Assembly (NCBI RefSeq): GCF_017355785.1
Contig: NZ_JAFEWE010000011.1
Location: 1-64,000 of the forward strand
Direction: 5' to 3'
Source of the DNA: Desertivirga arenae
Lineage (GTDB): Bacteria; Bacteroidota; Bacteroidia; Sphingobacteriales; Sphingobacteriaceae
DNA: 64,000 bases
This document shows, piece by piece, positions 4,142 to 59,843 of the stretch (the first letter of the stretch is position 1; each line of letters begins with the position of its first letter). Made by a program: the position numbers and the translations under genes. The notes under the pieces are model-generated. The model was not told where the DNA came from, did not search any database, and saw only the letters and a program-made list of their open reading frames with translations.

Positions 4142-5356
4142 TTAGTTCACCAGGAAGTAGACTATCCTGCAAGCATTGCCTTTCGAAGCCGTATTTCTAT
4201 TTCCAAGTATTTTGATATTAATTGTATGCCTGGACTTTTTGAGTTCATCGCCTAAAATAAGATACCAGGGAAGGTGAAGGCTCTTACTCCAGGGCGTGAA
4301 GAGATCTACCGTTACAGGCTTTCCTCCATCGATGCTGTATTCAATTGTTCCGGCATCCGGGCCGGAATTAACTGCCAGGCCAATAGTGCTACCTTTAAAT
4401 TCAAAATCCAGTTCGGCACCGGCTTGAGTACCTTCAAGTATCGGACGACTGTAAAAGCCTGGCCTTGCTCTCACACCATCTTCTGGTTTCCATTCATCTA
4501 TAAATGAAAAGCCGCTTTTCAGTATAGCTTTTTTAATAGGAGCATATCTACCCTTCTTGTAATTGTACTGATCCAGGGCACGTGGAACTTTAGCCTTTTT
4601 TAATTTCGTAGGGGCTGGTTTATTTTCAGCTTGTAGCTGGAAAAGACGCTTGATCGAAGAAAAGTAAACTTCCTGACCGAATGGAGATGGATGAAGATCC
4701 TTAAAATCCTCCTTCCAACTGAATTCCCCTGCCCTGATCCTTTCGGTAACTTCTGCTGCGAAATTGATAAAAGGCACCTTATACTCTCTTGCAATTTCCT
4801 GATGAACCTTAACCTCTACGGGGATAAGTCTTCCATTATAATCTTCAATCTTCCGTTCGTCTGCGAAAGCCATAAGAACTAAATTGATATAAGGGTTGGT
4901 TGAAAACGCTTGCCTTACTATTCCCTCTAAAGACCTTATTTGCTGAATTTCAGGAGTACCATTTCCTCTATCGTTCACTGCAGCTTCAATAAACATCAAA
5001 TCGATCCTCCCCTTTTTAAAAACATCTTCCCACACTCTAAATGCGTGAGGAACGCTTCCAAGAGAAGGTATCCCTGCATTAATAAAATTAAATCTGACAT
5101 CTGGATAGCAGTTTTTCAGGTATTCCCCTACCTTATCCCGCCATCCGGGATTCCTGGTGATCGATCCTCCCAAAAAAGCAACGTTAACCTGCTTTGTCAG
5201 CCTCAGCTGCAAGAAGAAGTTGTTCAAGCCACCAAATTGTTGAATGAACTGCTCTGACCGAATAGGTCCTGCATCATTTCTAACCTGAGCGTTTAGTGTT
5301 ATAGCGGCTATAAAACAAAGCATTAATAGAAACTTTTTCAGCATATTAATTTGCAT
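4142..5356 (-). CDS. Secreted SGNH/GDSL-type hydrolase (putative carbohydrate esterase)
   Basis: Probable extracytoplasmic esterase that removes acyl groups from the glycan. The likely start is the second Met (5344; MLKKFLLMLCFIAAITLNAQ), which gives a clean signal peptide and removes the overlap with the fucosidase stop at 5346. SGNH blocks are visible: block I FLGGSITRNPGW (GGS instead of the usual GDS), block II Gly in NAGIPSLGS, block III Asn in EAAVNDRG, and block V D-L-H in FKDLHPSPFG with the catalytic Asp and His. The last roughly 120 residues resemble a beta-sandwich accessory domain. It is the last gene of a three-gene unit after a GH29 fucosidase and an unassigned protein. Substrate specificity cannot be read from the sequence; acetyl esterase is a guess from context. 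Confidence 0.82.
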   Translation of the reverse strand: MQINMLKKFLLMLCFIAAITLNAQVRNDAGPIRSEQFIQQFGGLNNFFLQLRLTKQVNVAFLGGSITRNPGWRDKVGEYLKNCYPDVRFNFINAGIPSLGSVPHAFRVWEDVFKKGRIDLMFIEAAVNDRGNGTPEIQQIRSLEGIVRQAFSTNPYINLVLMAFADERKIEDYNGRLIPVEVKVHQEIAREYKVPFINFAAEVTERIRAGEFSWKEDFKDLHPSPFGQEVYFSSIKRLFQLQAENKPAPTKLKKAKVPRALDQYNYKKGRYAPIKKAILKSGFSFIDEWKPEDGVRARPGFYSRPILEGTQAGAELDFEFKGSTIGLAVNSGPDAGTIEYSIDGGKPVTVDLFTPWSKSLHLPWYLILGDELKKSRHTINIKILGNRNTASKGNACRIVYFLVN

Positions 5357-7148
5357 TAACTGGCTCCAACACTATCGTTTTTAATTTAAACAACTCTTTC
5401 CCCTTATTCAATGGCCTGCATTCCAAAGTGTATGTCCCCGCCTTCGCAAAGCTGCTTGTAGCTATGGTATGCTTAATGAACATCAAGGGCGCGCTTTTGT
5501 CAAATTCAGAACTACGAAGTGTCCTGAATAAGAACCGCGTATCATTTACCAACAGAACTCCCTCCTGTTTGGCGCTTTCCTGAGGACAGGCATATTCTAG
5601 TATAATATGATAATCACCAGGATCCTGAATGTTAATTGTAAAGCTTGCAGCGTCTGTCGGGTCTTTCATTCCGGTAACACAAGTAGCATGCTTCCAGTCG
5701 CCATAGTAGTGACTGTAGGTTAACGGTTTTATTTCCGCACTACCCTGTACTTTTCCATAAACAGCATCTACCGAATTCATAGCGAACTGATTTGAAACAG
5801 GAACTGGCGTAGTAAGATCATAAGGAGCGATCTTGCCTGTATACTCAATCACGAACACTGTGTTAGCGGCAGTTTGATCAAAAGCGGGCAGATCCAGGAT
5901 CAGCTGATTCCCCTTCTTTTTAACCGGAACTACTTTTCGCCCCTGAAGGGTATAAGCAGAACGAACGGCGGCTTCAAAGCCCGGGATTATCAGCTTTCCA
6001 TTATGCGGCCGGTTAAAAACATGCAGATATTGTTTCCCTGGTTTTGACGTTGACACTCCCCAGGGTTGCTGAGGAATAAGTCCATAGGTTGTTCCGTAAA
6101 TACTTTCACCATTCCGGGCGAGCCACTTGCCTGTTTCCTTCAAATATTTTTCTGAGTATTCAGGTATCCTTCCGTTACCATCCGGCCCTACATTTAACAT
6201 CAGATTTCCCCCTTTAGAGGCGACATTCGCCAATAAACGAATGATCTCTAAGGGACTTTTAAAGTTCATATCATGCTTGATATAGCCCCAGGAATCATTA
6301 TGCGTGTAGATAGACTCCCATGGTCCCATGATTGGTGTAGTTGGCAGCTCCGAGTCGCCAAAATCCCGGTAATCTCCCAATCCCTGACCCACCCTGCTGC
6401 TGAATAAGCAATTAGGTTGCAAACGTCTCAGGCCATTCACAAATTCTTCAGTCTGCTGCCTTGTCATTCCCCCCGGAGTATCGAACCAGATAATTCCTAA
6501 GGGACCGTAATTGGTCATTAATTCTTTCAACTGAGGGATTGCCTTCTGATCATAATATAACTGATAGTTCTTCTTTTTCTCATCAAAATCCCAGCTGTTC
6601 TTACCTCCATTTGGCTCATTCCAATCCTGAAATTGAGAGTAATAGAATCCGAACTGAATACCTTTTTTCCTGCTGGCAGCTGCAAGGGCCTTCATGGGAT
6701 CTTTTTTGTAAGGCGTGGCATCAACAATATCAAAATCCGTAACTTTTGAATCGAACATAGAGAAGCCCTCATGATGCTTTGCCGTTACTACCATATACCG
6801 GATACCAGCATCTTTTGCTAATTGAGCCCAATCCTCAGCATTGAAGGCTACAGGGTTGAATGTTGCAGCAACTTCGCGATACTCTTTAACCGGAATTTTA
6901 GCTTGATTCATGATCCATTCACCGCTCCCATAATAATTTTTATCTTTCCACTCTCCAGCAAGTTTTGAGTATAAACCCCAATGAATGAAGAGACCGAATT
7001 TTGCATCTTTAAACCAGCCGATATTCGGGTGCTCTTTTCCCGAGCTCCTGCTGTCCCACATTTCATCCATTGTTTGAGCTTGCATACTTCTGTTCAGGTC
7101 CAGGACAAGTAGCGCAAGGATAAAACCTCCTTTCAAAATAGCTTTCAT
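5346..7148 (-). CDS. GH29 alpha-L-fucosidase (first of three)
   Basis: Predicted retaining exo-alpha-L-fucosidase, 600 residues, with an N-terminal signal peptide (to about residue 24). The GH29 barrel occupies about 40-350: KFGLFIHWGLYS, AKHHEGFSMFDS and FGFYYSQFQDW precede IIWFDTPGG, whose Asp223 is the expected nucleophile. A GH29-type beta-sandwich follows, then an extra C-terminal domain (about 440-600) that resembles a carbohydrate-binding or beta-sandwich module. It lies 2 bases after the unassigned gene at 7151-8908 and directly before the SGNH esterase, indicating one transcript. Linkage preference is unknown. The other two GH29s in this window differ in length and C-terminal region. 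Confidence 0.93.
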   Translation of the reverse strand: MKAILKGGFILALLVLDLNRSMQAQTMDEMWDSRSSGKEHPNIGWFKDAKFGLFIHWGLYSKLAGEWKDKNYYGSGEWIMNQAKIPVKEYREVAATFNPVAFNAEDWAQLAKDAGIRYMVVTAKHHEGFSMFDSKVTDFDIVDATPYKKDPMKALAAASRKKGIQFGFYYSQFQDWNEPNGGKNSWDFDEKKKNYQLYYDQKAIPQLKELMTNYGPLGIIWFDTPGGMTRQQTEEFVNGLRRLQPNCLFSSRVGQGLGDYRDFGDSELPTTPIMGPWESIYTHNDSWGYIKHDMNFKSPLEIIRLLANVASKGGNLMLNVGPDGNGRIPEYSEKYLKETGKWLARNGESIYGTTYGLIPQQPWGVSTSKPGKQYLHVFNRPHNGKLIIPGFEAAVRSAYTLQGRKVVPVKKKGNQLILDLPAFDQTAANTVFVIEYTGKIAPYDLTTPVPVSNQFAMNSVDAVYGKVQGSAEIKPLTYSHYYGDWKHATCVTGMKDPTDAASFTINIQDPGDYHIILEYACPQESAKQEGVLLVNDTRFLFRTLRSSEFDKSAPLMFIKHTIATSSFAKAGTYTLECRPLNKGKELFKLKTIVLEPVNAN

Positions 7149-7150
7149 AA

Positions 7151-9040: not shown

Positions 9041-12000
9041 TTAACCTTCGCCTGAGCTGTTCAGGGAATCTGCAAAAAGCTTCGGACTCTTACCAAATTG
9101 CTTCTTAAAGCAGCGGCTGAAATAATAAGGATCGCGGAAACCTACCTGCTCCGCTACTTCAGCAACTGTTAACTGGGAGTGCTGGATCAGTTCGAGGGCT
9201 CTCTTCATCCGGTGCAGGGTAATGAACTCTGTGGGAGAATGGCTGGTTAGTTTGGATATCTTTTTTTGAAGTAGGCTGGAACTCACGCACATTTGATCTA
9301 CCAGCTGACTTACTCCAAAATCGGCGTTGGAAATATTTTCCCTGATGATACTTATCACTTTTTCGATGAACACTGCATCCTGATCATTCAATTCGGCTTC
9401 AACGGGAATATCTTCAGCTGAGGAAGAAAAGAGCTTTCTTAAGCGATTCCTGCTTTGGATAAGATTACGCACCTTAAGTTTGAAAACGTCGATATCAAAC
9501 GGTTTGCTGATATAGTCGTCTGCGCCTGCCTCAATTCCTTCAATCTGGCTTTCAACATCGGCCCTGGCTGTAAGCAAAACTACCGGTATATGTGCTGTTT
9601 TAACATTGTCCCTCAGTTTCTTCAATAACTCTACCCCGGTCATCACCGGCATCACTACATCGGAAACTATAACATCTGGTGTATATTTTATGGCAGCTTT
9701 TAGTCCCTCTTCTCCATTTCTGGCTTGTGTTACTTTGTAAGTAACAGACAGCTGACGGGTTACGAAAGCGAGAAGTTCTTCGTTGTCTTCAACAATAAGC
9801 ACATGCTCCAGGCCTTTTTCATTTGTGTTCCCCATTTCACGATCCTCACTTTGCATTCCATGACCAAGCAGATCAGATACCTGTTCTTTATCGTAGATCA
9901 AATCAGGGACCTCAGGATTTTCCTCTATTTCAGTTGCGTAAACCTGTTTATCAATAGGGATCCTCACTGTGAACTCCGATCCTACCCCCACCTGGCTTTT
10001 TACAGCAATAACACTTTTGTGCAGCCGAACCAGTTCCTTCACAATAGAGAGCCCGAGACCGGTTCCTTTGGTATCTACATTAGTTATTGATTCACGGTAG
10101 AACTGCTTGAAGACCTTGCTTAAATTATCGTCTGCAATCCCAATACCCGAGTCTCTAATAGCAATTTCTAAATAATTTGAATCCGGGAGATATTTACCAA
10201 AAGAAACTTCGCTTCCTGATGGTATAGTTCCCTTGCCTAAGAGACGCGTATGCACACTTATTGTTCCGCCAGCAGGTGTATAATTAAAGGCATTTGATAT
10301 CAGGTTGAACAGAACCTTTTGCAGTTTTGTGGAATCAACCCATCCCTCTGCCTGTTCTGCACCGTGATCAATAAAAAAGTCTATCTGCTTTTCTTTTGCC
10401 AGTTCAACAAATAATCCTGCGATCTCGTCTGCAAGAAGAAGGAGGTTAATATGTCTTACCCTTAAGGGGAAATTCCTGTTCTCCAACGTCCGGAAGTCCA
10501 TCAGCTCGTTGATGAGATGAAGCAGACGACCTGCGTTCCTCTTCATTACCATAAGGTTCTCCTCGGCCTCCTCCGGCTTCACCTTCTTAGATAAAAGCTT
10601 ATTTAATGGACCAATGATAAGCGTTAGCGGGGTACGGAATTCGTGCGATATATTGGTAAAGAACTGTAGCCGGTATTCACTGATCGCTTTGATCCGGCTG
10701 TTGAGTTTCATTACCTCGTCCCGGTTCTCTTCCAGCTCTTTGTTCTGCTTCCGGATCACCTCGGTGCGCTGCTTCACCATTAGGTCAAGCTTTCGCTTTT
10801 GCATCCTCAAGCTCTTCGTTCTATAGTAATAGAACCATACGGCAGCTCCTATCAATGCCAAGATCATCAGGAACTGGAAGGTAGCAGTTTGCCACCAGGG
10901 CGGTAATATTTCGAGTTTTAAGGCTACCTCATCTTTACTCCAGACACCATCATTATTGGACGCTCTTACGCGGAAAACATAAGTTCCGGGCTGTAGGCCG
11001 GTGTAGGATGCTGAAGTTTTACTACCCGGAACGTTCCAGTCCTTTTCAAGGCCTTCCAACTTATAAGCGTACCTGTTGTTCTCAGGGGAAGTAAAACTTA
11101 AGCCTGCAAATTCGAATTCGATAAATGACTGATTGTGCTTAAGCGTTATCTCTTTCTCAAAACCAATGCTTTGATTCAATGGAGAACTGCTGGAATCAAT
11201 TGTTACTGGTTTATTAAAGATTTTTAAATCGGTAAGAACAACCGTTGGAACAAGTGGATTTGCAGTGATACGTTCGGGATAGAAATAGTTAAAGCCGTTG
11301 ATACCGCCAAAGAGCATTGCACCATCCCGACTTAAATAACAAACGCCCTTCTCAAATTCGTTACCCTGCAGGCCATCATGAATATTAAAAACATTGATCT
11401 TAGATGTAGAAGGATCAAATTTAACAAGTCCGTTAACCGTACTTATCCATAAATTATCCTGTCTATCTGTTAGTATCCCACAAATAATATTAGTTGGAAG
11501 TCCATCTTTGGTAGTATAGACCTTAAACTTTCGGGTAGCGACATCGAAGAAATTAAGACCATTATTAGTAGCGATCCATAGATTTCCTTTACTGTCTTTT
11601 CGTATGGAATTAACCCGGTTATTACTAAGACTATTACCTGAGTTATTTTTGGCGTAATGCGTAAGTTTTCCCGTTTTCCGGTTATAATGGTACATACCAT
11701 CAAAAAGGGAGATGAAATAGATCTCGTCTCTATTGTACTCGACCATCTCGCGCACCGATGCCATTTTTACTCCCTTTTGCAGCGTGCCCGACTGAGGGTC
11801 GAGGATGTAAACCCCTGTAGTTGTGGCTACCCAGATCTCTCCATACTGATCCTTATGCACCATTCCTATTCTTCCCGGATTTATAAGGGGACCGGATTCC
11901 AGCCTAACTTTTAAATGGCTAAAGGTTTGAGCATTTTTATTGAAGATGAAAAGACCACTATTGTTTGTCCCAATAAGAAGCCTGGCATCATCAATCGCTG

Positions 12001-13249
12001 TAAGCGTTAATACATTTCCATCTGTAAGCCCTGAAGATAATTTTGGATTACTCCGGTAATTTACAAAGGTTCCTGTTTCTGGATTGAATTTACTAATACC
12101 CCCTTCATCACGGGTACCTACCCAGATTTCACCCTTCGAGTCCTGATAGAAACATCTGACGTTACTGTTGAAGATACCGCCAGGGCGGAAATTAACCTTG
12201 TAATGAAGAAAATTTTTTCGATAGGGATCATAATAATTCAATCCTGCATATGTTCCAATCCAGATATAACCCTTTCTGTCCCTGAAAATAGCAGTTATTG
12301 CATTGCTGGTAATGCTGTTAGGATCTTCGGGAACATTGGTGTGCGCGCTCAAAAAATCAACCTTCTTATCCTGATGATTATATACAAATAGTCCTCCACC
12401 ATCCTTAGCCCCGATCCAGACATTTTGGTGTTCATCTTCAGCTATCCCTGTAACATTATTTGTAAGTAAGGAAGAGCCCTTCTTAAAATGGTTGATCAAT
12501 TTTCCATGCTGGTCCAGCTGGTAGATACCCTGGTCACCGGTAGATATCCAAATATTTTGCCGGCTATCTTCATTTATGCTCCTTACATTGATCTTTTCCT
12601 CAGGTACCCTGACCTTTGCAAGGGAATTTTTTCGTGGCTCATAGATCAGCAAGCCATGACTGGAACCGATCCAAACTCTTTGTTTAGCATCCTCATAAAT
12701 GTCGTTTACTACCTCCCTGCTAACGAGACTGGTTTTGTTGAACACCGGGATATTTGAGTTGGAGATCTTACGGTTGAAATAGAACAAACCCTTATTGGTG
12801 CCCACCCAGAGATGTCTTCTGCTATCCAGGAAAATCTTAAAAACTCCGGTGTCAAAAATTAGAGTATCGCGGCCAGAAACTTTAGGAACTGAGGTATAGA
12901 AGCGCTCCTCCTTCCGGTTGAAAAAGGTGATTCCCTGCCTGGTACCGATCCATAGGTTTCCGTTGTCAGGATCGCAGGATATTGAATTAACATAGTTATC
13001 AGGGAGACCATTCTCTGCCTTATATATTTTGAAACGAACCCCGTCATAACGTGAAACGCCATCTTCTGTTCCTGCCCATATAAAGCCAAATTTATCTTGG
13101 GTTACACAGTTTATTTTATTTGATGAAAGGCCCGCATCCCTTGTTAAATGTTTGAAATAAGGTTGCCCCACCTGAGCATAACAGATCTTGAAACTGCACT
13201 CCAGCAGAAGCAGAAAAAAGCAAAAAAGGATACGTGCAAAATTTCTCAT
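9041..13249 (-). CDS. Hybrid two-component system sensor/regulator (HTCS)
   Basis: One-polypeptide sensor kinase and transcription factor of 1402 residues, typical for Bacteroidota glycan sensing. Order: signal peptide (1-25, ending CYAQ); two seven-bladed regulator propellers (about 30-680, repeated NxWIGT and GLxxFN motifs) plus a Y_Y_Y domain (about 690-780) facing the periplasm; a membrane segment about 787-810 after WW785; histidine kinase with SHEFRTPLT (His869 phosphorylated) and an ATPase domain with KGTGLGLSIV; receiver domain with SDVVMP (Asp1197 phosphoacceptor); and a C-terminal AraC-type DNA-binding domain (about 1290-1395). All catalytic motifs look intact. It sits between the GH29/SGNH unit and the divergent AraC regulator and probably activates neighbouring operons when a fucosylated oligosaccharide binds the propeller. 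Confidence 0.97.
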   Translation of the reverse strand: MRNFARILFCFFLLLLECSFKICYAQVGQPYFKHLTRDAGLSSNKINCVTQDKFGFIWAGTEDGVSRYDGVRFKIYKAENGLPDNYVNSISCDPDNGNLWIGTRQGITFFNRKEERFYTSVPKVSGRDTLIFDTGVFKIFLDSRRHLWVGTNKGLFYFNRKISNSNIPVFNKTSLVSREVVNDIYEDAKQRVWIGSSHGLLIYEPRKNSLAKVRVPEEKINVRSINEDSRQNIWISTGDQGIYQLDQHGKLINHFKKGSSLLTNNVTGIAEDEHQNVWIGAKDGGGLFVYNHQDKKVDFLSAHTNVPEDPNSITSNAITAIFRDRKGYIWIGTYAGLNYYDPYRKNFLHYKVNFRPGGIFNSNVRCFYQDSKGEIWVGTRDEGGISKFNPETGTFVNYRSNPKLSSGLTDGNVLTLTAIDDARLLIGTNNSGLFIFNKNAQTFSHLKVRLESGPLINPGRIGMVHKDQYGEIWVATTTGVYILDPQSGTLQKGVKMASVREMVEYNRDEIYFISLFDGMYHYNRKTGKLTHYAKNNSGNSLSNNRVNSIRKDSKGNLWIATNNGLNFFDVATRKFKVYTTKDGLPTNIICGILTDRQDNLWISTVNGLVKFDPSTSKINVFNIHDGLQGNEFEKGVCYLSRDGAMLFGGINGFNYFYPERITANPLVPTVVLTDLKIFNKPVTIDSSSSPLNQSIGFEKEITLKHNQSFIEFEFAGLSFTSPENNRYAYKLEGLEKDWNVPGSKTSASYTGLQPGTYVFRVRASNNDGVWSKDEVALKLEILPPWWQTATFQFLMILALIGAAVWFYYYRTKSLRMQKRKLDLMVKQRTEVIRKQNKELEENRDEVMKLNSRIKAISEYRLQFFTNISHEFRTPLTLIIGPLNKLLSKKVKPEEAEENLMVMKRNAGRLLHLINELMDFRTLENRNFPLRVRHINLLLLADEIAGLFVELAKEKQIDFFIDHGAEQAEGWVDSTKLQKVLFNLISNAFNYTPAGGTISVHTRLLGKGTIPSGSEVSFGKYLPDSNYLEIAIRDSGIGIADDNLSKVFKQFYRESITNVDTKGTGLGLSIVKELVRLHKSVIAVKSQVGVGSEFTVRIPIDKQVYATEIEENPEVPDLIYDKEQVSDLLGHGMQSEDREMGNTNEKGLEHVLIVEDNEELLAFVTRQLSVTYKVTQARNGEEGLKAAIKYTPDVIVSDVVMPVMTGVELLKKLRDNVKTAHIPVVLLTARADVESQIEGIEAGADDYISKPFDIDVFKLKVRNLIQSRNRLRKLFSSSAEDIPVEAELNDQDAVFIEKVISIIRENISNADFGVSQLVDQMCVSSSLLQKKISKLTSHSPTEFITLHRMKRALELIQHSQLTVAEVAEQVGFRDPYYFSRCFKKQFGKSPKLFADSLNSSGEG

Positions 13250-44098: not shown

Positions 44099-44821
44099 CT
44101 ATTGAGGGACTGTAGTTGTTAAAAAACGATCTATCACATGAACTACACCGTTAGTTGCAAGCAGACTGCTGGTTCTAACATTTCGCACTCCGTTAAGCTG
44201 GACCGGATAGTCAGAAGTGTTTGAAGGGGAACTATTTAAAACCTGAAGTGTCATTTGTGATTCAGGATTCGGACTAAACGCTGAGCTTGAGTGACGAGTA
44301 ACTCCTGTAGGCAGAGCCGATAAGGATCCTGCAGGGGCAAGAGTCTTTACTGTAACCGATTGAATGGGAGGAAGCGTATAGTGGCTGTATTCTCCCTCAA
44401 TGATCAGATACTCGAAATAACGCCTAACGAATTCTTTTGAGTAGCTGTTCCAGTTTGTTGCAGCCTTTCCGTTCACCAAATTGGCACCGAAGAAACTATC
44501 ATTTGGAGGAGTAGATCCACGGCTTATGGCATCGTTATGAAGAAAAATGTATGTTCTTCCTGGCTTTTTATACTCGTTACTGTCAATTTCGGCATATCGA
44601 ATTCCTTCCAACATCCTACTGAAGATAAGATTATCTGAACTGGTACCAGTAGCCCTGTCTTTCAAATATTGCCATGCTGTTCTATTTAACTTCGGATCAA
44701 GCGTATGAGGTGTTCTATCATAATCTTCCTGCAGATCCAGGCCGAACAATGTGCAGCCCGATAAACCCCAAAGAACGGTCAGGAAGAATAGGTATACTAT
44801 TCTAATTTTAATAGCTTTCAT
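44099..44821 (-). CDS. Fasciclin-domain lipoprotein in a SusCD operon
   Basis: Small surface lipoprotein of 240 residues; lipobox LSGC (Cys about 23). One Fas1-like domain is visible: TAWQYLKDRA, LIFSRMLEGIRYAEIDSNEY, GRTYIFLHNDAI near the start, and the diagnostic H2 motif SLLATNGVVHVIDRFL at the end. The middle is long and divergent. It lies 7 bases after SusD and before the beta-helix lipoprotein. Fas1 lipoproteins occur beside SusCD pairs in Bacteroidota and may act as extra glycan-binding or assembly subunits, filling the place of SusE/SusF; that role is inferred from position only. Confidence 0.82.
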   Translation of the reverse strand: MKAIKIRIVYLFFLTVLWGLSGCTLFGLDLQEDYDRTPHTLDPKLNRTAWQYLKDRATGTSSDNLIFSRMLEGIRYAEIDSNEYKKPGRTYIFLHNDAISRGSTPPNDSFFGANLVNGKAATNWNSYSKEFVRRYFEYLIIEGEYSHYTLPPIQSVTVKTLAPAGSLSALPTGVTRHSSSAFSPNPESQMTLQVLNSSPSNTSDYPVQLNGVRNVRTSSLLATNGVVHVIDRFLTTTVPQ

Positions 44822-46331: not shown

Positions 46332-46337
46332 AGCTGC

Positions 46338-49992: not shown

Positions 49993-52419
49993 TTATTCTA
50001 TTGTGAAAGTCTCTTTCAGACGTATATCTTCAGATGAGCTTCCTATTAAAACTTCAAACTCGCCTGGCTCTACAACCGGTTTCATATTTCTATCCAACAG
50101 CTCTAGATGCTCTGGCAAAATGGTAAATGTTACTGTCTTGGTTTCACCAGGATTTAATTTTATTCTCTCAAATCCTCTCAGTTGAGAATCGTAAACAATT
50201 ACGCTGCTCAATTTATCTTTTATATACAGCTGGACTACCTCATCTCCGGTTCTGCTACCGGTATTAGTCAGGTCTAAGGAAACTTTTATTTGTCCTTCTG
50301 CCGACTGGCTTTTGTGGGAAAGCTTCAGGTTTTTATACTGAAAGGTTGTATAACTAAGACCGAACCCAAAGGGATACAAAGCCCCATTTATGCTTGTTTT
50401 GCCATAACCGTTGTTGCCTGAGGAGGGCTGGTTTGCATGAGACCCTGGTTTGAAAGGGAAATTATATTCCAGCTGACCGGTTGTTTTAGGAAAAGTTACA
50501 GGTAATTTTCCTCCTGGATTATAGTCGCCAAATACAGCTTCTGCTATCGCTTTAGCTCCCATTGGTCCCGGAAACCATGCCTCAAGGATTGCCTCTGCAT
50601 TTTGATCTGCCCAATTAATCGTTAGAGGACGACCATTGATCAGGATAACAATAACAGGTTTACCTGTTGCTTTTAGTGCTTGTAAAAGTTGTTCCTGGCG
50701 ACCAGGCAGATCCAGGCTGGTACGCGATAAGCTTTCTCCAACGCGCTTTTCATCCTCTCCCAGTACTGCAATGATCACGTCTGACTCTTTTGCCTTTTCT
50801 ACGGACTCTGCTATACCTGCCTTTTCTGTCTCTGAAAGAGGAGCACTAACAAGTTCAGTTCCCGGCCAGCCCTCATTGATAATATCGCAGCCTTTAGCGT
50901 ATTCAAACTTCAACGCCTGCCCCTGATAAGCTTTCAATGCTTTATAAACAGAAAGAGAAGGGTTATTTCCTGGTCCGTAGCGACTTACTGTAAAGCTTAC
51001 CTCGTCTGCCAGTGGCCCTGTAACAAGAATTTTCTTTGCCCGGTTCTTATTAAGGGGAAGGAAGTTCTCCTTGTTTTTTAATAATACAAGTGATTCCCGG
51101 TTTAGCTGAAGAGCGAACGCTTCGTCTGCACTGGTGTGAACTAGTTTATCTGCAGTCTTAATATCCTGAGCTAAAGGACGATCAAACAATCCGAGCCTGA
51201 ATTTTACTGTCAGCACCTCCCTCACCCTTTGATCGAGTGTTTGCATTGAAACTTTACCTTCCTTTACCAATTCGCGTAGAGGATTAAGAAATACCTGAGG
51301 TTCCCGAAAATTAGTCCAGACGTTTAATCCGGCGTTTATTGCCTGTTCAATGGCCCCTTTAAAATCGTCTGCTACATGATGTTTTGAGGCTATAAATTCT
51401 ACAGCTTCACTATCAGACACAATGTAGCCGTCAAAGCCGAATTGCTGTCGAAGAAGTTCAGTAAGAAAATAATGACTTCCAGTTACCGGAATTCCATCCC
51501 AATCGTTATAACTGCTCATTATCCCCATTGGCTTTGCTTCTTTAACCACCCGCTTGAAGGGATACAAATACAATTGATGCATTTCCCTCGGTGCTACGTG
51601 CGGATCAGTACGAGCATTTCCATCTCTTCCTCCTTTAGGTACACTGTAAACAGCATAGTGCTTAAGCGTAGATGCAACTCCTTCGCTTTGAATCCCCTGT
51701 ACCATTTGTTTTCCCAGTTCTGCAATTAGAAAGGGATCTTCTCCATAACATTCAACCACCCTTCCCCAGCGTGGGTCGCGGGCAGGATCAAGAATTGGAG
51801 CATAAACATTGGTATAACCCAACACTCTGGCTTCGCGACCTACCATATGTCCGGCCTGATTAACCAGATTTTTATTCCATGTGCTTCCGATACCAATGGG
51901 AGCGCACAAGGGTGTGGCTTTTTCATGGCAAAGACCGTGAATGCCCTCGTTAGTAAAATCTACAGGAATACCTAGACGGGTCTCTTCAATAAACCACTTC
52001 TGTACCGTATTGATTGCCGAAGCATGTTTACTGAATGGGAAAGAATAAGATGTGACGGCCTTCTTATTATTTGGAACGCTGTTTAATTCTTCATCTATAT
52101 TAGCAATTCCATCTTTCCAAATGGAGGTTTTCCAGGCTGGTGTGGGCATTTCATCTTTAAGAACCCTGCCGTATCCGTACAAGGTAGCAGTCTGCGCGGT
52201 TTTCTCGTCGACATTCATTTGCGACAGAAGATCATTTACCCGTTTTTCAAGCGGTTGCGTGGGATCTTCGTAAATATCTTTTCTTCCATTCTTGTTGAAA
52301 TCTATCCAATTAACGTGGTAAATGTTTTTTCGGGATTTCTGCGCTTGAGCGATTTGAGATGATGCAGAAAAGCTGACAAACGAAAAAAGAATAAGTGTGC
52401 TTTTTGAAAATGTAAGCAT
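49993..52419 (-). CDS. GH3 beta-glycosidase (beta-glucosidase/xylosidase type)
   Basis: Secreted retaining enzyme of 808 residues, signal peptide ending SQIAQAQ. After an unusual N-terminal piece with a calcium-loop-like DFNKNGRKDIYED comes the GH3 barrel (PILDPARDPRWGRVVECYGEDPF, TLKHYAVY, GFDGYIVSDSEAVEF with predicted nucleophile Asp336), the alpha/beta sandwich (VIIAVLGEDEKRVGESLSRTSLDLPGRQ, where the acid/base lies) and a fibronectin-III-like C-terminal domain (YPFGFGLSYTTFQY, GDEVVQLYIKD). Likely exo-beta-glucosidase or related. It is bounded on both sides by dispersed repeats, so it is probably transcribed alone. Confidence 0.94.
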   Translation of the reverse strand: MLTFSKSTLILFSFVSFSASSQIAQAQKSRKNIYHVNWIDFNKNGRKDIYEDPTQPLEKRVNDLLSQMNVDEKTAQTATLYGYGRVLKDEMPTPAWKTSIWKDGIANIDEELNSVPNNKKAVTSYSFPFSKHASAINTVQKWFIEETRLGIPVDFTNEGIHGLCHEKATPLCAPIGIGSTWNKNLVNQAGHMVGREARVLGYTNVYAPILDPARDPRWGRVVECYGEDPFLIAELGKQMVQGIQSEGVASTLKHYAVYSVPKGGRDGNARTDPHVAPREMHQLYLYPFKRVVKEAKPMGIMSSYNDWDGIPVTGSHYFLTELLRQQFGFDGYIVSDSEAVEFIASKHHVADDFKGAIEQAINAGLNVWTNFREPQVFLNPLRELVKEGKVSMQTLDQRVREVLTVKFRLGLFDRPLAQDIKTADKLVHTSADEAFALQLNRESLVLLKNKENFLPLNKNRAKKILVTGPLADEVSFTVSRYGPGNNPSLSVYKALKAYQGQALKFEYAKGCDIINEGWPGTELVSAPLSETEKAGIAESVEKAKESDVIIAVLGEDEKRVGESLSRTSLDLPGRQEQLLQALKATGKPVIVILINGRPLTINWADQNAEAILEAWFPGPMGAKAIAEAVFGDYNPGGKLPVTFPKTTGQLEYNFPFKPGSHANQPSSGNNGYGKTSINGALYPFGFGLSYTTFQYKNLKLSHKSQSAEGQIKVSLDLTNTGSRTGDEVVQLYIKDKLSSVIVYDSQLRGFERIKLNPGETKTVTFTILPEHLELLDRNMKPVVEPGEFEVLIGSSSEDIRLKETFTIE

Positions 52420-52660: not shown

Positions 52661-54301
52661 CTAATTCTTTCCGATGGAAACATTCTTCCCAGTCAATCTC
52701 AGACTTAACTGAGCTTCGAACAAAGATTTAGGATTTACCGTAGCACCCTGCATCTGGTGAATTCCAGAGTTCTCAAAGGTCACTTCGTTATCAGACTGAA
52801 AACCAACTAATATTGGTGAAGCAATAGTGTAGTTCCTTCTTCTGTTCATATCCCAAAAATTATAATGCTGCGGCTTTGCTGATTTGTGATAGAAATTCCA
52901 TAGCACCAGCTGTTTTCCGTGATGTGGATGCCCTGGCTCCGGCCCTCCTAAATTGTAAAATACACCCCCATCGATGTTATCATAAAGAGTAGCATAAGGC
53001 TGACCGGAGTGAATGTCGAAGTTCTGGTCTACCCCTAAAGAACACTGCGTAACAACTGTTCCTGAAGCCCCGTAACCTGTTCCCGCTCCATGATGCTGAG
53101 CCCCGTTAAAGGTGCAGTTTTTGATCAATACACCATAACCGGTTCTGGCGTGTATTGAAGCATGACCTTTCTTTCCTCTGAAATGTGTATTATTTACGCT
53201 TACCTGATAACCAGCTCTGATCATGATACCTTCATTCCAATCATGAAACTCACAATTTCTTACCCAACTATTTTTTATAAACTCCATTCCTATAGCCTCA
53301 TATGCATAATCGTGAACTGCATTTTTATGATGAAGGAATTCTTCCGGGAAGGCTTTCCAGTTACTAGTGAACAATATGTCTTCAATTCCGCATTCTTCGA
53401 GGAAACTTCTCGTTTGAATGTCCCAATCATATCCTTTAACCATGATCACATCCTGGTGAAGAGGATTTTTAAAAGTTACTTTATTTCCTTCGATCCTGGC
53501 TATTGTATGTATTTCGTTGATCTGCATTCCTCCCGCCGGCCCCAAAAGGCGCGTCCACACGGACTTAAGCTCTAAGGGAGCAAAGTACTTACGAGTGTAT
53601 TCTTCGCTTCGGTGATGCACAACCACATCCTGCCCAACCTGTAGTTTAGAAGCATCAGCAACGGCAACCGTGAAACTTTCACGAGAAGCATTTTGAGTAA
53701 TGCTGGTAAGCTTTTCAAGACGATCATTTTCTGGTGCAAACATAAACTGGCGCCCGTTTATACGCATAGTAGCCTGAAAGATTTCCGTACCACCGGCGCC
53801 ACTTCCACTTCCTTTTAAAACAATATTACTTTTAGAAATCCGGATCTGTTTTTTATTGTTGGTATCTGCAGCAATCTTATATCTTCCTGCAGGGAAAAAC
53901 ACTACTCCTCCTCCTGAATTTTTTTCTGCAGCGTCTACCGCTTTCTGTATGGCGGCATCATCAAACCCTTCATCGTTTGGAATCGCCCCGAAATCGGTTA
54001 CCTTAAAATATTTTCGATTTGAAACATCCGGGATAGCTTTTTCAGAAAAGTGATAGCCAGCATAGGAGAAATCTGGTAGCACTGGTGTTTTTCCGCTTTT
54101 TTTCGCTTCCACGAAATCCTTCCATAAAGGTGGAACTTCCTGCGCATGGGAGGCTACTGCTTTTTGTATCGCTTCTGTATTTAGAGTCGTTCCATTGCCT
54201 ACAGCTCCAAACTTTGTTATATCGAAAGCTGCTGGTTGTAGTGCCTCCAATTGAAAAACAAATACGATTATTAACAAGCCGGAGATTAAAATCCCTCTCA
54301 T
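52661..54301 (-). CDS. Beta-helix protein, divergent paralog 3 (pectate-lyase superfamily)
   Basis: Secreted beta-helix protein of 546 residues with a signal peptide to about 20. It carries LPDFSYAGYHFSEKAIPDV like paralogs 1 and 2, then VTDFGAIPNDEGFDDAAIQKAVDAAE, GGGVVFFPAGRYKI and SNIVLKGSGSGAGGTE. The C-terminal half differs (CEFHDWNEGIMIRAGYQVSV, HARTGYGVLIKNCTF, GAQHHGAGTGYGASGTVV) but still ends NPKSLFEAQL. Oddly, residues about 26-46 contain an extra, partial copy of the family start (FDITKFGAVGNGTTLNTEAI), so the N-terminus looks internally duplicated. It is flanked by dispersed repeats and probably monocistronic. Enzyme type is not assignable; a lyase or glycosidase is likely. Confidence 0.78.
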   Translation of the reverse strand: MRGILISGLLIIVFVFQLEALQPAAFDITKFGAVGNGTTLNTEAIQKAVASHAQEVPPLWKDFVEAKKSGKTPVLPDFSYAGYHFSEKAIPDVSNRKYFKVTDFGAIPNDEGFDDAAIQKAVDAAEKNSGGGVVFFPAGRYKIAADTNNKKQIRISKSNIVLKGSGSGAGGTEIFQATMRINGRQFMFAPENDRLEKLTSITQNASRESFTVAVADASKLQVGQDVVVHHRSEEYTRKYFAPLELKSVWTRLLGPAGGMQINEIHTIARIEGNKVTFKNPLHQDVIMVKGYDWDIQTRSFLEECGIEDILFTSNWKAFPEEFLHHKNAVHDYAYEAIGMEFIKNSWVRNCEFHDWNEGIMIRAGYQVSVNNTHFRGKKGHASIHARTGYGVLIKNCTFNGAQHHGAGTGYGASGTVVTQCSLGVDQNFDIHSGQPYATLYDNIDGGVFYNLGGPEPGHPHHGKQLVLWNFYHKSAKPQHYNFWDMNRRRNYTIASPILVGFQSDNEVTFENSGIHQMQGATVNPKSLFEAQLSLRLTGKNVSIGKN

Positions 54302-54516: not shown

Positions 54517-56820
54517 TTAATTTTCCACTTGTAACTCCTGCAATTCCAGCATTTCATTCTCCCCAGTTTTAATATTAAGAAGCTCTCCTTTAAGCTGTTC
54601 GGCAGTCTGCCCGTTTCGTTTTAAATGCACAGTTTTCCCTTTCCAGGGATTTTCTATTACACACGGTCTCCCTTTTTCGCTTAAGATTCTGACATCCCTG
54701 ACCTTCCCTTTTTCCAAAGCACTGCTAACTAGAAAAGCACCATAAGCACGCAACGTTTGGAAGCTTGCATCCTTACTTCTATTCCAGTTAGGAAATATCC
54801 GAAGTACGCCTTCGTAGCTTTGCATCAACATTTCGTTGATAGTGAGAGGTACAGCTGCCAAAGTCTCGATCCCTCCTCCTCCCTGGGTGATCCATAAATT
54901 CGGCAAAGACTGAGCTGCAATCCGTTCTTTCAGATTCTTTAAAATCACATCCGGGCCATATCCAACCCTCACAGCTCCTGGGTAGCAAGTTTCTATCCCA
55001 TTTCCTAGCGTGTGCCCCCAGTCGCCCGGTGCGCTAACCTGGTCTTTCCAGTGAGAAATATCGCTAAGCAATATTTTATTTAGCTCGGGCTCTGTTTTAG
55101 GTCCCACCACTCCGCCTGGCAGGATCAGTCCATGCATAGAAACGCGTGATAACCCTACTGCCGTTGGGTTATCAGAGGAGGCATTTCTTTCTACACTTTT
55201 TAGCGACAACCTGCCATCTGCCGTGCCGACAGGGAATTTACTCAGATGATCGACTATATGCTGCCACTTTTCACGCCGGTTTAAATCAACCTTCAGATAG
55301 TCACTTACGTCAAGAATTCCCTTAAATAACATTTTAACTAGTCCCAGAGAAAGGCTCGAGTTGAAATCCCCAAGCCGGTCTTTCCACTGCCCCTTATTTC
55401 TCAAATTTGGCATCTCTTCATTGAAGTGGTCCATATAGATAACGTAGCGGTCGTTTTCAAACTTCAGGTATTCCTCCCAGAAGTTGGCGCATTCTTGCAG
55501 ATAAGGGTAAACCGTATTCGCATAATCTTTATCGTAGGTACTGTAAAACCGCATCATCATATTTCCCACACTAAAAACAGCGTTAATTTTTTGCCCAAGG
55601 AATTTGTATCCGCCGTCAATCGTATTTTCGGTAGTAGCATATCTCTTAAGCATCTCTTCCGGAGTTAGCGGCCAGCGTGTTGTTACAAGTCCTTTCGGTC
55701 CAATACCGACCGGATAATAAATCCCTTTTTGATTCAACAGCTCTTTAGCGTGCAACCTTCCCTTCTCCATATAATCGAGCAATGGCTGATCAAAGTTCTC
55801 TGTGAGTTCGATATGATTCGATGAATAGGAAGCCCAGTAAGGTGCCTGATAATTATAATTAAGATGATAGTCTCCTCCCCATGCTGTAGAATCCTGAGTA
55901 ATAAAGGGTCCCCATATACCAGGAGCAAATTTTCGGGGCCGTGAACTGCATGCAAAGAGATATTGAGAGGCGTAGTAATATTTTTCAAGGAATGTATCTG
56001 GAATTTGAATTTCAGATTTATTCCAAAAGTCTGCCCACCACTTTTGATGTTTAACTTTCGTCGCCTGAATAGATGCAGGAGTAAATGCCTGCACATCCCT
56101 GATCGCCTCCTCTTTCCAATCTCTACTATCCTGATTACTCAACATACTTAAAGCAAAAATCAGTTTCCTGCCAGGACTAATAGTTAGAGTTTGAGATTTT
56201 GAAGCTTGAATCCCTAGAACTTTCATTGCTATGGCTACGTGTGACGGCCATTCGAGAAGAGGGGTATTCTCGAAGGAACGAGTGGCCCAATAAACGTTAG
56301 TAACAGTACCCGATTTGCTAACTGAGGTATTTCCAATGGCTGGCCAGAGTTTAAAACTCAAATGGCAGGTTTTATTAGAAGATATTTCTGCTACTACAGT
56401 GTTTGATGTAGCAGAAACCCAGGAGTTGAGACTGACGACCAAATCACCTTTCGTAAATTCACCTGATATGTATGCCTTGTCAATGATTTGTTCAACATGA
56501 TACGCCGCACCCTTCAACTCGACTATGTTTATATCAAGACCGCCAGGAAAGGCAATACCCCCACCGGGATAAACAGGATAAGCTCTCCAGAAGTCGTTTT
56601 TCCCAAGATAAAAACGCAAGCGGTCTGGTGTCCCTCCAAGGGTTAGACCGATATCTCCGTTACCAGCCAGTGGAGCATCAGGAGTTTTTGATGTAGGAAC
56701 TTTTTTAGGGGGAGAAGTAAAGACAGCTTTATAACGACCTGCATAAATGGGTTGTGCCGGCAATCTTTTGCACATTAGCAAAATGAGCAGCAGAAGGATC
56801 AATTTAATTTTAGGATACAT
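54517..56820 (-). CDS. GH95-related (alpha/alpha)6-barrel protein with altered active site
   Basis: Secreted protein of 767 residues, signal peptide ending KRLPAQ. Overall plan matches GH95: N-terminal beta domain (PLAGNGDIGLTLGGTPDRLRF resembles [14 protein letters not shown]), then the helical barrel. The two Asn of the GH95 water-activating pair appear kept as N321-Y-N323 in HLNYNYQAPYW, but the Asp-bearing [10 protein letters not shown] motif is replaced by QGGGGIETLAAVPLTINEML, and the barrel otherwise diverges. It could be a GH95 subfamily with another substrate or a related unassigned family. It starts 36 bases after the GH28-like gene and is probably co-transcribed. Fucosidase activity should not be assumed. 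Confidence 0.75.
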   Translation of the reverse strand: MYPKIKLILLLLILLMCKRLPAQPIYAGRYKAVFTSPPKKVPTSKTPDAPLAGNGDIGLTLGGTPDRLRFYLGKNDFWRAYPVYPGGGIAFPGGLDINIVELKGAAYHVEQIIDKAYISGEFTKGDLVVSLNSWVSATSNTVVAEISSNKTCHLSFKLWPAIGNTSVSKSGTVTNVYWATRSFENTPLLEWPSHVAIAMKVLGIQASKSQTLTISPGRKLIFALSMLSNQDSRDWKEEAIRDVQAFTPASIQATKVKHQKWWADFWNKSEIQIPDTFLEKYYYASQYLFACSSRPRKFAPGIWGPFITQDSTAWGGDYHLNYNYQAPYWASYSSNHIELTENFDQPLLDYMEKGRLHAKELLNQKGIYYPVGIGPKGLVTTRWPLTPEEMLKRYATTENTIDGGYKFLGQKINAVFSVGNMMMRFYSTYDKDYANTVYPYLQECANFWEEYLKFENDRYVIYMDHFNEEMPNLRNKGQWKDRLGDFNSSLSLGLVKMLFKGILDVSDYLKVDLNRREKWQHIVDHLSKFPVGTADGRLSLKSVERNASSDNPTAVGLSRVSMHGLILPGGVVGPKTEPELNKILLSDISHWKDQVSAPGDWGHTLGNGIETCYPGAVRVGYGPDVILKNLKERIAAQSLPNLWITQGGGGIETLAAVPLTINEMLMQSYEGVLRIFPNWNRSKDASFQTLRAYGAFLVSSALEKGKVRDVRILSEKGRPCVIENPWKGKTVHLKRNGQTAEQLKGELLNIKTGENEMLELQELQVEN

Positions 56821-56855
56821 AGCAATTGGTTAATCGGTTGTAAGTTTCAGATATT

Positions 56856-59843
56856 TCAATTTAATCGTTGGAAAGATCTTAGAGGCCCCTTACCCCATTC
56901 ATCATCATAAAAGGAAACATTTTCGACAGTCACATCCGAGGAGCTTTTGAGGCGCAGTACAGAGCCGGCTTCTTTTGCTTTCACCAGGTTTAAGGATGAA
57001 AAGACAGCACCATTCACATCATCCAACAAGATAGGATAACGCCTGTCCCGCTTCTCGAAATTGAAAGAGCAGTTCTGCACTTTCAATCCCACCACGTGCC
57101 GGGCCCATAGGCCATAAGAGGGCTGGACTTTGAGATTAGATATATTGTATTGCCCCACGCCAAGTTCTGGAGGAACCATGGCTGTATCTGCTGCCGGATT
57201 TCCGCCTTTTACAAGAATGTTCACATCATTAAATGCTACGTTTTTAATATAGCCCGTATGATGGCCATTTGGAAGCTTGAAGTTCAGCCCACCCTCTACC
57301 ATTGATGGATCAGGAAGCCTGTAACCGGCTATAATTGGAGAGGATCTTTTTTGAGTTCCATCATAAGCTTTCCATCTTACCGCAGCATTTCCGAAAGAGC
57401 TTCCGCTATAAACTTCTGAAATATCTACGCCATTAATTAAAATGTTCTCTACCTGGCCAATATTCACATTGTTAACCAGTAATTCATCGTGCTTAACCCC
57501 GTTCTCGACAAATTTGACCAGGCTTACATCAGATCCTAAAATCCTGGCTCGATTGGATATGGAAATAAAGAAGGGAGTTGTTGTCCTAAACATCTTTGAG
57601 CGGGAATGAACAGGACCTGTATGACCGCAGTTTAAATGAACGTCTTTCACATGCCCTCCATCATTTGTTGAAATGGAAAAGCCCGCTTTATTAGCTCCCA
57701 GAACATAAATATTATCTACATGGACATCCATTATATCGTCAGCCGTTTCTGATCCTATCTGGAAAAGGTTACAGTTAGTGTCACCAATGATATTACGAAC
57801 CATATAATGCCTTGCCGGCCGCGTAAACCCTAAGGAACAGTCTGAGCCGGGTTTGACAATGTCATCTGAACTTACCTTACAGTAAATATTAGTTACCGTT
57901 ACATTATTGCAGGCCATGAAGTCGTAAATATCCCGCACATTGGAGGTGCTGTTTTTACCGAAGTAAGTATTGTGAACATGAATATTATCGCTGCCTGTAG
58001 CTAGTACAACAAAGTGTCCGGCACGATCAATATTCAGCATGTTACTAACTTCTGTGCTAACGGAATTGTCCTTTTGTATGTAGTAGGGTTCGTCCCTTTT
58101 GGGATCATACCACAAATCTTCATCCTTATAAATGCCCCCTATTTCAATGTTAGTGCATAATTTCAATGAGAACATTTTATCAGCCCTGTTATCAGGCGTG
58201 TTGTTCATTACTTTATCTCCTGTTACAAGATTTCCGTTGCCGGTAATTCTTCCGTTTCCAATGATCTTGATATTGTCCTGCCGTTCGGCAAAGAACATCG
58301 CATTTTTAAAGAAATGATGTCCCACATCCTGTTTGGTCAGGTAATTTTCCGGATCCTGATATGGCCCAGCATCGGTTGGCGAAAGTCCTGAGCGGTAGCT
58401 CAGATCGCTGAACCAGGTGGTCTCTGGTGCGTCTGCCCCTTTCAACGCCTGGATTGTAGCATCTTTATCCAGGTAGAGGTAAACGTTGCTCCTGAGATGC
58501 ACCGTCCTAACTGAATAAACCCCTTTGCTAAAGAATAAAGTGCCCCCGCCTATTTTATTCAGAAAATTAATGGCACTGTCTATTTTCGTTGTATTATCGG
58601 TTAAAGGATCTCCATTTATTCCAAAATCCTCAACAGCCTTTTTCCCTGTGTAGAACCAGGCAAAGTTTGACCCTCCCCTAGCCGAACCATCTTTTACAAA
58701 AAGCCTAAATGCGTATAACTTTTCTGGAGATAGTCCTTTTACAGTTACCCTCGGGCTTCTTTTGTCGAATTCCGCATTTGCAGCTCTCCATGTTCTACCC
58801 TCATCAAGGGACTGTTGAAGGACAAAGTTTCTGCTATCCGTTGCAGCCCAGCTGAAACTTGCACTAGTATACGTTTCAGCGGTCTCCTTATAACTCAAAT
58901 CTTTATTTACAATTCTGGCAAAATCTGAAATTGTATTTGTTACCTGAAGCGTGGCTGTTTCAGAACCTGTGCCAGGACTAGTTAGTACTTCAGGTTCGGA
59001 CGTGATGTATTGGGATTTAAAATAGTACTTACCTTCTTTCGCAAGCTTTACATCCTTAATTACGAGTTTGAGATCAGGTCCGTTTGAGGGTCTTAAATCC
59101 AGGTTAGTGAAAGTTATTATCGAACTTCGGTCCTTCAATATTGAGATCTGTACATCCCCTACTTTTGAGTAAGAATAACGAGTGCCTGTTCTACCAATTG
59201 ATTGCGCTGCCAGCGCATTTAGCGTTACATCTCCCCTGCCGATAACATTAACCGTAGTACTTTCCATACTTGCGTTAACACCCTCAGGCAGATAAATTCT
59301 TACAGTTGCATTAGGGCTGCGTTGTCCTGCTGTAAAATAAAGGATCAAATCCTTTTTGGTATTTTTAGTTTGAGAGGCTTGTCCTAGTTGTAAATTACCC
59401 TTTAAGGCTCCACGCCTTACTTTGAGGTAATAAGACCTGGTGTTTTTTCTGCTTTTGGATTCTATTAGCAAACGGTCGCCTGTTACTAGCTCTGCATCTT
59501 CCGTAGCGGAATGATTGGCGGTTATAATTTTGTATAGAGGAGCGGAGCCGTTTGCTGAAACTATTTCTTTTGATAAAAGACTGGCTGTGACTCCTGTCCT
59601 TGTAAGTCCCTTCCCCTTAGGAGTATCTACCGTATGCCTCATAGTTGTTCCTGCTATCAGAATGATGGTATCCTTAAGTATGGAAACGATATGGGGAGAA
59701 GTATTGCTGGGTCGAATATTATCTATTGATTGACCTTTTGTAAGCGGAAAAAAGGAAAACAAAAAGAAGCAGATAATCAGATATGGAACTTTAATCATGC
59801 AATTCATTCTATCCGAAGATAATGTGAACCGGAACCCCATCAC
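56856..59843 (-). CDS. GH28-like beta-helix protein with long N-terminal region
   Basis: Secreted protein of 995 residues. The better start is probably Met16 (about 59798; MIKVPYLIICFFLFSFFP), which gives a clean signal peptide. Residues about 40-370 are beta-rich, and a fibronectin-III-like stretch (SWAATDSRNFVLQQSLDEGR, LYAFRLFVKDGS) precedes the GH28-type helix (EDFGINGDPLTDNTTKIDSA, GGGTLFFSKGVYSV, NIKIIGNGRITGNG). The catalytic Asp pair is present (SSDDIV, Asp660-661), but the usual NTD motif is replaced by NVRDIYDF and the GHG histidine region reads CNLFQIGSE. It might be a rhamnogalacturonan- or xylogalacturonan-type GH28 or a new specificity. First gene of a two-gene unit with the GH95-like protein. 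Confidence 0.8.
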   Translation of the reverse strand: MMGFRFTLSSDRMNCMIKVPYLIICFFLFSFFPLTKGQSIDNIRPSNTSPHIVSILKDTIILIAGTTMRHTVDTPKGKGLTRTGVTASLLSKEIVSANGSAPLYKIITANHSATEDAELVTGDRLLIESKSRKNTRSYYLKVRRGALKGNLQLGQASQTKNTKKDLILYFTAGQRSPNATVRIYLPEGVNASMESTTVNVIGRGDVTLNALAAQSIGRTGTRYSYSKVGDVQISILKDRSSIITFTNLDLRPSNGPDLKLVIKDVKLAKEGKYYFKSQYITSEPEVLTSPGTGSETATLQVTNTISDFARIVNKDLSYKETAETYTSASFSWAATDSRNFVLQQSLDEGRTWRAANAEFDKRSPRVTVKGLSPEKLYAFRLFVKDGSARGGSNFAWFYTGKKAVEDFGINGDPLTDNTTKIDSAINFLNKIGGGTLFFSKGVYSVRTVHLRSNVYLYLDKDATIQALKGADAPETTWFSDLSYRSGLSPTDAGPYQDPENYLTKQDVGHHFFKNAMFFAERQDNIKIIGNGRITGNGNLVTGDKVMNNTPDNRADKMFSLKLCTNIEIGGIYKDEDLWYDPKRDEPYYIQKDNSVSTEVSNMLNIDRAGHFVVLATGSDNIHVHNTYFGKNSTSNVRDIYDFMACNNVTVTNIYCKVSSDDIVKPGSDCSLGFTRPARHYMVRNIIGDTNCNLFQIGSETADDIMDVHVDNIYVLGANKAGFSISTNDGGHVKDVHLNCGHTGPVHSRSKMFRTTTPFFISISNRARILGSDVSLVKFVENGVKHDELLVNNVNIGQVENILINGVDISEVYSGSSFGNAAVRWKAYDGTQKRSSPIIAGYRLPDPSMVEGGLNFKLPNGHHTGYIKNVAFNDVNILVKGGNPAADTAMVPPELGVGQYNISNLKVQPSYGLWARHVVGLKVQNCSFNFEKRDRRYPILLDDVNGAVFSSLNLVKAKEAGSVLRLKSSSDVTVENVSFYDDEWGKGPLRSFQRLN

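Follow-up and report, generated by a model that had tools for sequence, protein, structure and literature searches.

The first 64 kb (C2:1-64000) of the 208-kb contig C2 in the 6.19-Mb genome of Desertivirga arenae, hereafter the window, were surveyed for genes, and a large polysaccharide utilization locus (PUL) of 56 kb was confirmed at positions 4142-59843. SusC-SusD pairs adjoin carbohydrate-active enzyme and regulator genes in this region, and all of its genes lie on the minus strand except those for the AraC regulator (13568) and unkC (20731). Judged from the families encoded, this probably is one PUL, assembled from separable modules, for uptake and dismantling of an acidic polysaccharide that carries fucosyl, alpha-galactosyl and 4-linked uronic acid residues.

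The survey yielded 38 open reading frames (ORFs) of at least 120 aa, 31 of them main, non-overlapping ORFs; Pfam was run on 30 of these, and the remaining one, a sigma factor, was run on NCBIfam. Pfam confirmed three GH29 proteins, a GH95, a weak GH95-like protein, a PL6, a PF05426 lyase, two PF07470 proteins, a GH36, GH31, GH2 and GH3, an SGNH esterase, two SusCD pairs and a hybrid two-component regulator. This bears out the enzyme inventory of an initial annotation made from the sequence alone, with refinements in the PL38 and GH88 assignments and in four further beta-helix-like proteins (at 52661, 20731, 42365 and 56856). The protein at 56856-59843 has partial, sub-cut-off matches to Pect-lyase and to a rhamnogalacturonidase model, and that at 54517-56820 gave partial rather than full-length matches to GH95 models (81 and 24 bits). 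Three ORFs (7151, 17234 and 20731) had no Pfam match at E<=0.001. As that annotation had also stated, no rhamnosidase model matched among the 30 Pfam-scanned proteins; neither did models of GH43, GH51, GH127 or the pectate lyases PL1/9/10/11 in the window, and Rfam at gathering thresholds gave no matches.

Table 1. Genes of the locus, with window positions, strand and supporting matches
Feature	Position	Strand	Evidence
SGNH/GDSL esterase	4142..5356	-	PF13472 53 bits
GH29 alpha-L-fucosidase a	5346..7148	-	PF01120 306 bits
unkA, 585 aa	7151..8908	-	no Pfam or NCBIfam family
Hybrid two-component sensor/regulator	9041..13249	-	Reg_prop, Y_Y_Y, HisKA, HATPase, response regulator, HTH_18
AraC-type regulator	13568..14485	+	HTH_18 78 bits; 57-62% homologues in ten related loci
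GH36	15015..17192	-	Melibiase 341 bits
unkB, 685 aa	17234..19291	-	no Pfam family; predicted beta-sandwich + (alpha/alpha)6 fold, GH94/GH65/GH95 type
GH105-like unsaturated uronyl hydrolase, by elimination	19348..20472	-	PF07470 212 bits; NCBIfam BglB 106 bits, cut-off 420
unkC, right-handed beta-helix protein	20731..22251	+	no Pfam family; model pLDDT 85, Foldseek, weak BT3328-family match
GH29 alpha-L-fucosidase b	22361..23797	-	309 bits
PL6 lyase	23823..25133	-	PF14592 312 bits; 489 bits to PDB 7o84
GH88-type unsaturated glucuronyl hydrolase	25137..26345	-	3wiw 361 bits; UGLs 180-190 bits
GH29 alpha-L-fucosidase c	26568..28466	-	270 bits
PL38-type lyase	28483..29664	-	PF05426 327 bits; 3nfv 228 bits, 8bdq 152 bits
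GH31, close relative of PsGal31A alpha-galactosidase	29667..31817	-	1315 bits to 4xpo
SusD1	32117..33583	-	Pfam
SusC1	33588..36743	-	Pfam
GH95	37207..39777	-	616 bits
GH2, beta-glucuronidase-like	39781..42237	-	1223 bits to 6d7j beta-glucuronidase
unkD, predicted lipoprotein, 43% to unkC	42365..44008	-	DUF4955 match below cut-off only
Small predicted lipoprotein after SusD2	44099..44821	-	sub-cut-off fasciclin similarity; conserved beside SusD2
SusD2	44829..46331	-	Pfam
SusC2	46338..49493	-	Pfam
GH3	49993..52419	-	Pfam; BglX-like 523 bits, cut-off 666
DUF4955 + pectate-lyase-like beta-helix protein	52661..54301	-	DUF4955 above cut-off
GH95-like protein	54517..56820	-	81 bits on catalytic model
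GH28-like protein, 995 aa	56856..59843	-	rhamnogalacturonidase BT4146 family (NCBIfam) 154 bits, cut-off 500; 54-64% homologues in related loci

Enzymes directed at galactose, fucose and uronic acids

The strongest clue to a structural motif in the substrate comes from the GH31, whose match 4xpo is PsGal31A itself. The window GH31 shares 77% identity with the one encoded in the P. saltans genome G107, which is taken as Pedsa_3617/PsGal31A; that alpha-galactosidase has been reported with a fucose in its +1 subsite (PMC9491548). All five contact residues named in that source (Y274, E366, R418, Y432 and W486) are kept in the window GH31 with the same spacing and, taken with fucose at +1, predict alpha-galactose on fucose, a Gal-alpha-Fuc motif, in the substrate. 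The three GH29 proteins score 270-309 bits.

Five further enzymes point to uronic acids. Membership of the PL6 lyase in its family was upheld by the lysine of SNKS (230) and the arginine of LTLRHGN (250), which align with AlyGC at the residues with a catalytic role in PL6; the AlyGC R241A mutant is among the solved structures that it matches. The closest solved structures are 7o84 and 7o7a (489 bits), which from their primer-coded ends would be Pedsa0632, a poly-MG/poly-G lyase (PMC4954714). The PF05426 "alginate lyase" at 28483-29664 is PL38-like by its matches to 3nfv and 8bdq, and belongs to PL38 in keeping, as counted along the alignment, counterparts of H243 and Y298, the residues named for BoPL38 (PMC13169297). 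The protein at 25137-26345 matches the characterized unsaturated glucuronyl hydrolases (UGLs) 1vd5 and 2zzr in addition to 3wiw and belongs to GH88. Since PF07470 covers both families and this protein is of the GH88 type, the other PF07470 protein, at 19348-20472, is assigned as GH105-like purely by elimination. The GH2 has the beta-glucuronidase 6d7j as its best solved relative and contains NQK at 604, a position not aligned to a solved structure; an N-x-K motif contacts the carboxylate in GH2 beta-glucuronidases.

Recurrence of the gene set and comparison with known loci

In a sample of 201 genomes of the same family, GH31 was found at E<=1e-100 in 39 and PL38 at E<=1e-120 in 63. GH31 at >=64% identity occurred in 26 places, of which 22 were counted, the window included; G088 (read, not in the set), G008 (GH31 in two pieces), and G032 and G177 (not fetched) were excluded. 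Within 15 kb of GH31, and at >=45% identity to window proteins, a GH95 or GH29 homologue lay in 20 of the 22 places (GH95 in 18), PL38 or PL6 in 11 and GH88/GH105 in 12, counts that come from places selected by their own GH31 and carry no formal background rate. The homologue in G008 (G008:C1:3942158-3944277) consists of two abutting pieces in different frames, either a broken gene or a sequencing slip.

Around PL38, 52 places were read (50 of the 66 listed, L070 and a second place in G117), and GH88 and GH2 each lay within 10 kb in 37 of them, both together in 31; PL6 was found in 12, GH31 in 11, and a PL17 homologue within 15 kb in two. Given how often GH88 and GH2 stand beside PL38, GH2-PL38-GH88 is a recurrent, putatively uronate-cutting cassette that in the window PUL is joined to fucosidases and GH31. 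The cassette of this family of bacteria, with or without PL6, resembles the window proteins at about 50-75% identity and differs in mostly lacking fucosidases and GH31. The host genome itself has a second PL38 (69-73%) with GH88 (64-65%) and GH2 (70%) at G000:C12:930000-989999, and no fucosidase match was found beside it (L066-L068). Three Niastella loci (L088, L089 and L090) carry a more distant PL38 (34-37%) between unkB and GH36.

The fullest counterpart lies in G012, a genome of another genus. Both SusCD pairs, placed in one locus by the initial annotation, are kept together there (SusC1/D1 81/82%, SusC2/D2 60/56%), and about 75 kb of that genome holds, in addition, homologues of GH95, GH2, the small lipoprotein, the GH28-like protein, the hybrid two-component and AraC regulators, GH36, unkB, unkC, the GH105-like protein, DUF4955, GH29b, GH3, PL6, GH88, GH29c, PL38, GH31 and the GH95-like protein. 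SGNH, GH29a, unkA and unkD were not found in the G012 locus. As the SGNH and unkA genes of the left end had no homologue by tblastn in the related loci read, their membership in the PUL is the least sure. Most genes recur together in other genera, and by this sequence comparison the gene set goes beyond chance.

Among characterized systems, the P. saltans PsGal31A-type locus (GH31 taken as Pedsa_3617), which was placed by both published primers for its PL6 Pedsa3628, shares SusC1/SusD1 (66/67%), GH31 (77%), the GH28-like protein (57%), GH29b (59%) and DUF4955 (66%) with the window. In contrast, its two PL6s are 32-40% identical to the window PL6, a value that varies with the alignment, and the 60 kb read had no PL38, GH95, GH88 or GH2 match. 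A Bacteroides cellulosilyticus locus (L130) has GH31 (66-68%), GH36 (44-45%), unkB (52%), GH28 and a hybrid two-component protein in common with the window but carries two GH97, and no match to the window fucosidases or lyases was found in the 22 kb read; a Bacteroides metagenome-assembled genome (L116) adds PL8 and two PL6. No description of this PUL type was found in the literature searched, most subscription papers being outside its reach.

Several proteins of the locus belong to families without a Pfam model. Matches to unkA at E<=0.001 occurred in 14 of the 201 genomes, three of them weak, and unkB was found in 17; a profile scan of named genomes confirmed at least 588 unkB relatives, with 79 loci kept. 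Sequence searches against solved structures returned no matches for unkB (17234-19291) or unkC (20731-22251). The unkB model (pLDDT 88.7, from a 42-row alignment) is predicted to adopt the beta-sandwich/(alpha/alpha)6 fold of GH94, GH65 and GH95, its match to 8ho7 (E 6.6e-19, TMq 0.67, 11% identity) indicating fold class only. For unkC, Foldseek scores (TM about 0.4) indicate the beta-helix class and no function. A strongly conserved core is shared by unkC and unkD, and the best hit of their profile search reached only E 4e-5 over 78 positions.

Candidate substrates

The initial annotation had named a fucosylated, galactosylated, uronate-containing target, and this part is upheld by family matches, the GH31 residues and recurrence. 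Its preference for glucuronate over galacturonate fares less well. The beta-glucuronidase-like GH2 and the UGL-type GH88 indicate glucuronate, but the GH28-like and DUF4955 proteins of the window indicate galacturonate, as do two GH28s, GH27, BNR_4 and an altronate/galactarate dehydratase in the G012 sister locus, so the uronic acid may be galacturonate, and we do not commit to glucuronate alone. A galacturonate polymer of plants or streptophyte algae (mucilage, gum, decorated pectin or arabinogalactan), in place of a glucuronate exopolysaccharide, is a candidate with a less than even chance. GH28 also stands beside unkB in G088 and in B. cellulosilyticus, where the unkB-GH36-GH31 group occurs with GH28 and the two GH97; weighing on the other side are the resemblances of GH2 and GH88 and the glycosidase and pectate-lyase models that, as given above, had no match in the window.

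We rate as rather unlikely a bacterial exopolysaccharide of the colanic-acid, fucogel or Klebsiella-capsule type, the first choice of the initial annotation, which had also named a fungal polymer and plant gum. The sugar inventory would fit fucose, galactose, glucose and glucuronate, an SGNH esterase is present, and the unkC model resembles phage capsule depolymerases, including the Klebsiella K1 capsule lyase 7w1c, at a level (E 7e-11, TM about 0.4) that says little beyond a shared beta-helix. Colanic acid, however, is not known to have alpha-galactose on fucose, and no paper linking it to a Bacteroidetes PUL was found in the literature searched.

Two or more adjacent PULs with separate targets, for example the GH2-PL38-GH88-PL6 cassette and the fucose/galactose part, are a doubtful alternative to a single PUL. 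The cassette is found without fucosidases, in G117 even next to an alginate locus; the GH36-unkB-GH105-unkC group likewise exists separately, and the locus has two regulators. Yet PL6, GH88, GH29, PL38 and GH31 form one run in the window, and lyases lie together with fucosidases in G012 as well as in G027, G114, G072, G062, G191 and G026.

Several observations weigh against the proposed single PUL for a polymer that is neither alginate nor sulfated. Because the modules are found separately as well, more than one PUL may be contained in the 56 kb. Both PL6 and PL38 have close relatives among alginate lyases, and in P. saltans Pedsa3628, a strict poly-MG lyase in vitro (PMC4954714), lies about 20 kb from the PsGal31A-type GH31, both published primers having been found. 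In the PL38 tree, rows with fucosidase context do not form one clade (9 changes against a shuffled mean of 10.9), and as few changes arose in 39 of 500 shuffles. The 30 sulfatase matches elsewhere in the genome could act in trans, and in the G117 locus an ORF of phosphodiesterase type gives a sulfatase match below cut-off (20 bits). The lipobox calls for unkD and the small lipoprotein come from a simple regular expression.

Alginate, alone or with brown-algal fucans, is nevertheless a very improbable target. The initial annotation had argued against it from enzyme families, an argument that falls because both PL6 and PL38 include alginate lyases: the window PL6 is 53% identical to a P. saltans PL6 (G107:C1:773087) that would be the alginate lyase Pedsa0632, PL38 includes alginate-active members (PMC13027841), and in one paper both families are listed as alginate starters (PMC11333855). 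The conclusion itself stands on other evidence. PF07940, the PL17-type model, had no matches in the host genome or in G012 (93% complete) and is present in alginate-cassette carriers such as G117, G112 and G019. The model also finds a 726-aa ORF in P. saltans, which we infer to be Pedsa1196, the known PL17 of that species (PMC5966431). PF08787 (PL7) was likewise absent from the host and G012, which counts little since P. saltans, with its alginate lyases, also lacks it. GH88 and GH105 are not known to belong to the alginate route.

In neither lyase tree does the window sequence fall with those of alginate cassettes. The three alginate-cassette PL38 rows belong to a group of 26 rows (87/98) from which the window is absent, and the window PL6 pairs with that of G012 (100/99), separately from the eight rows of an alginate/cassette group (100/99), in a tree with long branches and with open forks around the window pair, including the fork that joins the alginate/cassette group. 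The apparent alginate locus of P. arcticus (G117:C1) shares the PL6 and PL38 families with the window; its PL17 type was identified by PF07940 and its PL7 by PF08787, and its SDR and transporter were read from sequence only. Homologues of its PL17, PL7 and SDR were found within 15 kb of GH31 in none of the 22 places, and the window has fucosidases and GH31 instead. No such homologue lay near the window's GH31 or PL38, a search that did not extend to pathway genes elsewhere in the genome. In P. arcticus itself (G117:C1:712261-739683, L193-L194), a GH2-PL38-GH88-PL6 cassette comes directly downstream, and on the same strand, of the alginate-type locus with its PL17 type, SusCD, PL6 and PL7. Alginate was set aside as target on the missing PF07940, the lyase trees and the missing homologues near GH31.

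Least probable of all is a sulfated fucan whose sulfatases are encoded elsewhere: none of the 30 sulfatase matches in the host genome, many of which lie on C39 and C41, falls on the 208-kb contig, and no sulfatase model matched among the 30 window proteins, as the initial annotation had held for the window and had left open for its flanks. When ORFs over 350 aa from 20 related loci were scanned for a sulfatase signature, the only matches were three ORFs of the divergent locus G117c and one ORF of G117full that is a GDSL esterase by Pfam.

Proposed pathway and its meaning

In the pathway that we infer, the two SusCD pairs, the small lipoprotein and unkD would provide surface binding and first cuts of a non-sulfated polymer. 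PL38 and PL6 would then cleave at uronic acids, GH88 and the GH105-like enzyme would take off the unsaturated ends, and GH2 would remove beta-glucuronic acid. GH31 would take alpha-galactose off fucose, with the GH29s and GH95 taking off the fucose itself; GH36 may remove further alpha-galactose, GH3 a beta-linked sugar and the SGNH protein acyl groups. Both regulators, the hybrid two-component protein and the AraC protein, could control the whole as a single regulon.

DNA shared upstream of both SusC genes was considered as a sign of coregulation and rejected, since it is a repeat of the repetitive extragenic palindrome (REP) type that also occurs in the GH36-AraC gap and near GH31. These REP-like repeats, with the core GTCATYCCGA, lie in gaps between PUL operons (14515-14598, 32010-32095, 36990, 37094 and 49829), the first as a 27-nt inverted pair with 85% complementarity. 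The core has eight matches in the window vs none in 80 kb elsewhere in the genome (L066-L069), of which L069 overlaps the last 9 kb of the window. To the left of the PUL, 116-3731 encodes an ECF sigma factor, FecR and a short SusC-like ORF ending at 116, which leaves 115 bases to the contig start; these genes form a separate system under anti-sigma control that is cut or damaged where the contig ends. Directly to the right, 60361-63507 encodes a helicase with PLD-like and DUF3427 domains, possibly a defense or repair gene.

PULs as such are well known; this one is a large, recurrent type that is, so far as the literature searched goes, undescribed, and the initial interpretation of it is partly supported. 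It is easy to read PL6 and PL38 as enzymes for alginate, as PMC11333855 does. Here they belong to a recurrent PUL with fucosidases and alpha-galactosidase, and PF07940 had no match in the genome, so the alginate reading is probably wrong for this branch. We tentatively suggest, as one of the less likely outcomes, that the target is an undescribed acidic polysaccharide in which alpha-galactosyl-fucose decorates a uronate chain, and for which PL6, PL38, unkB and unkC/unkD, derived from alginate- or glucuronan-lyase stock, would be specific. A motif of Gal-alpha-Fuc with 4-linked uronate would give a target polymer to a PUL type of several genera, and would also give functions to protein families without a Pfam model.

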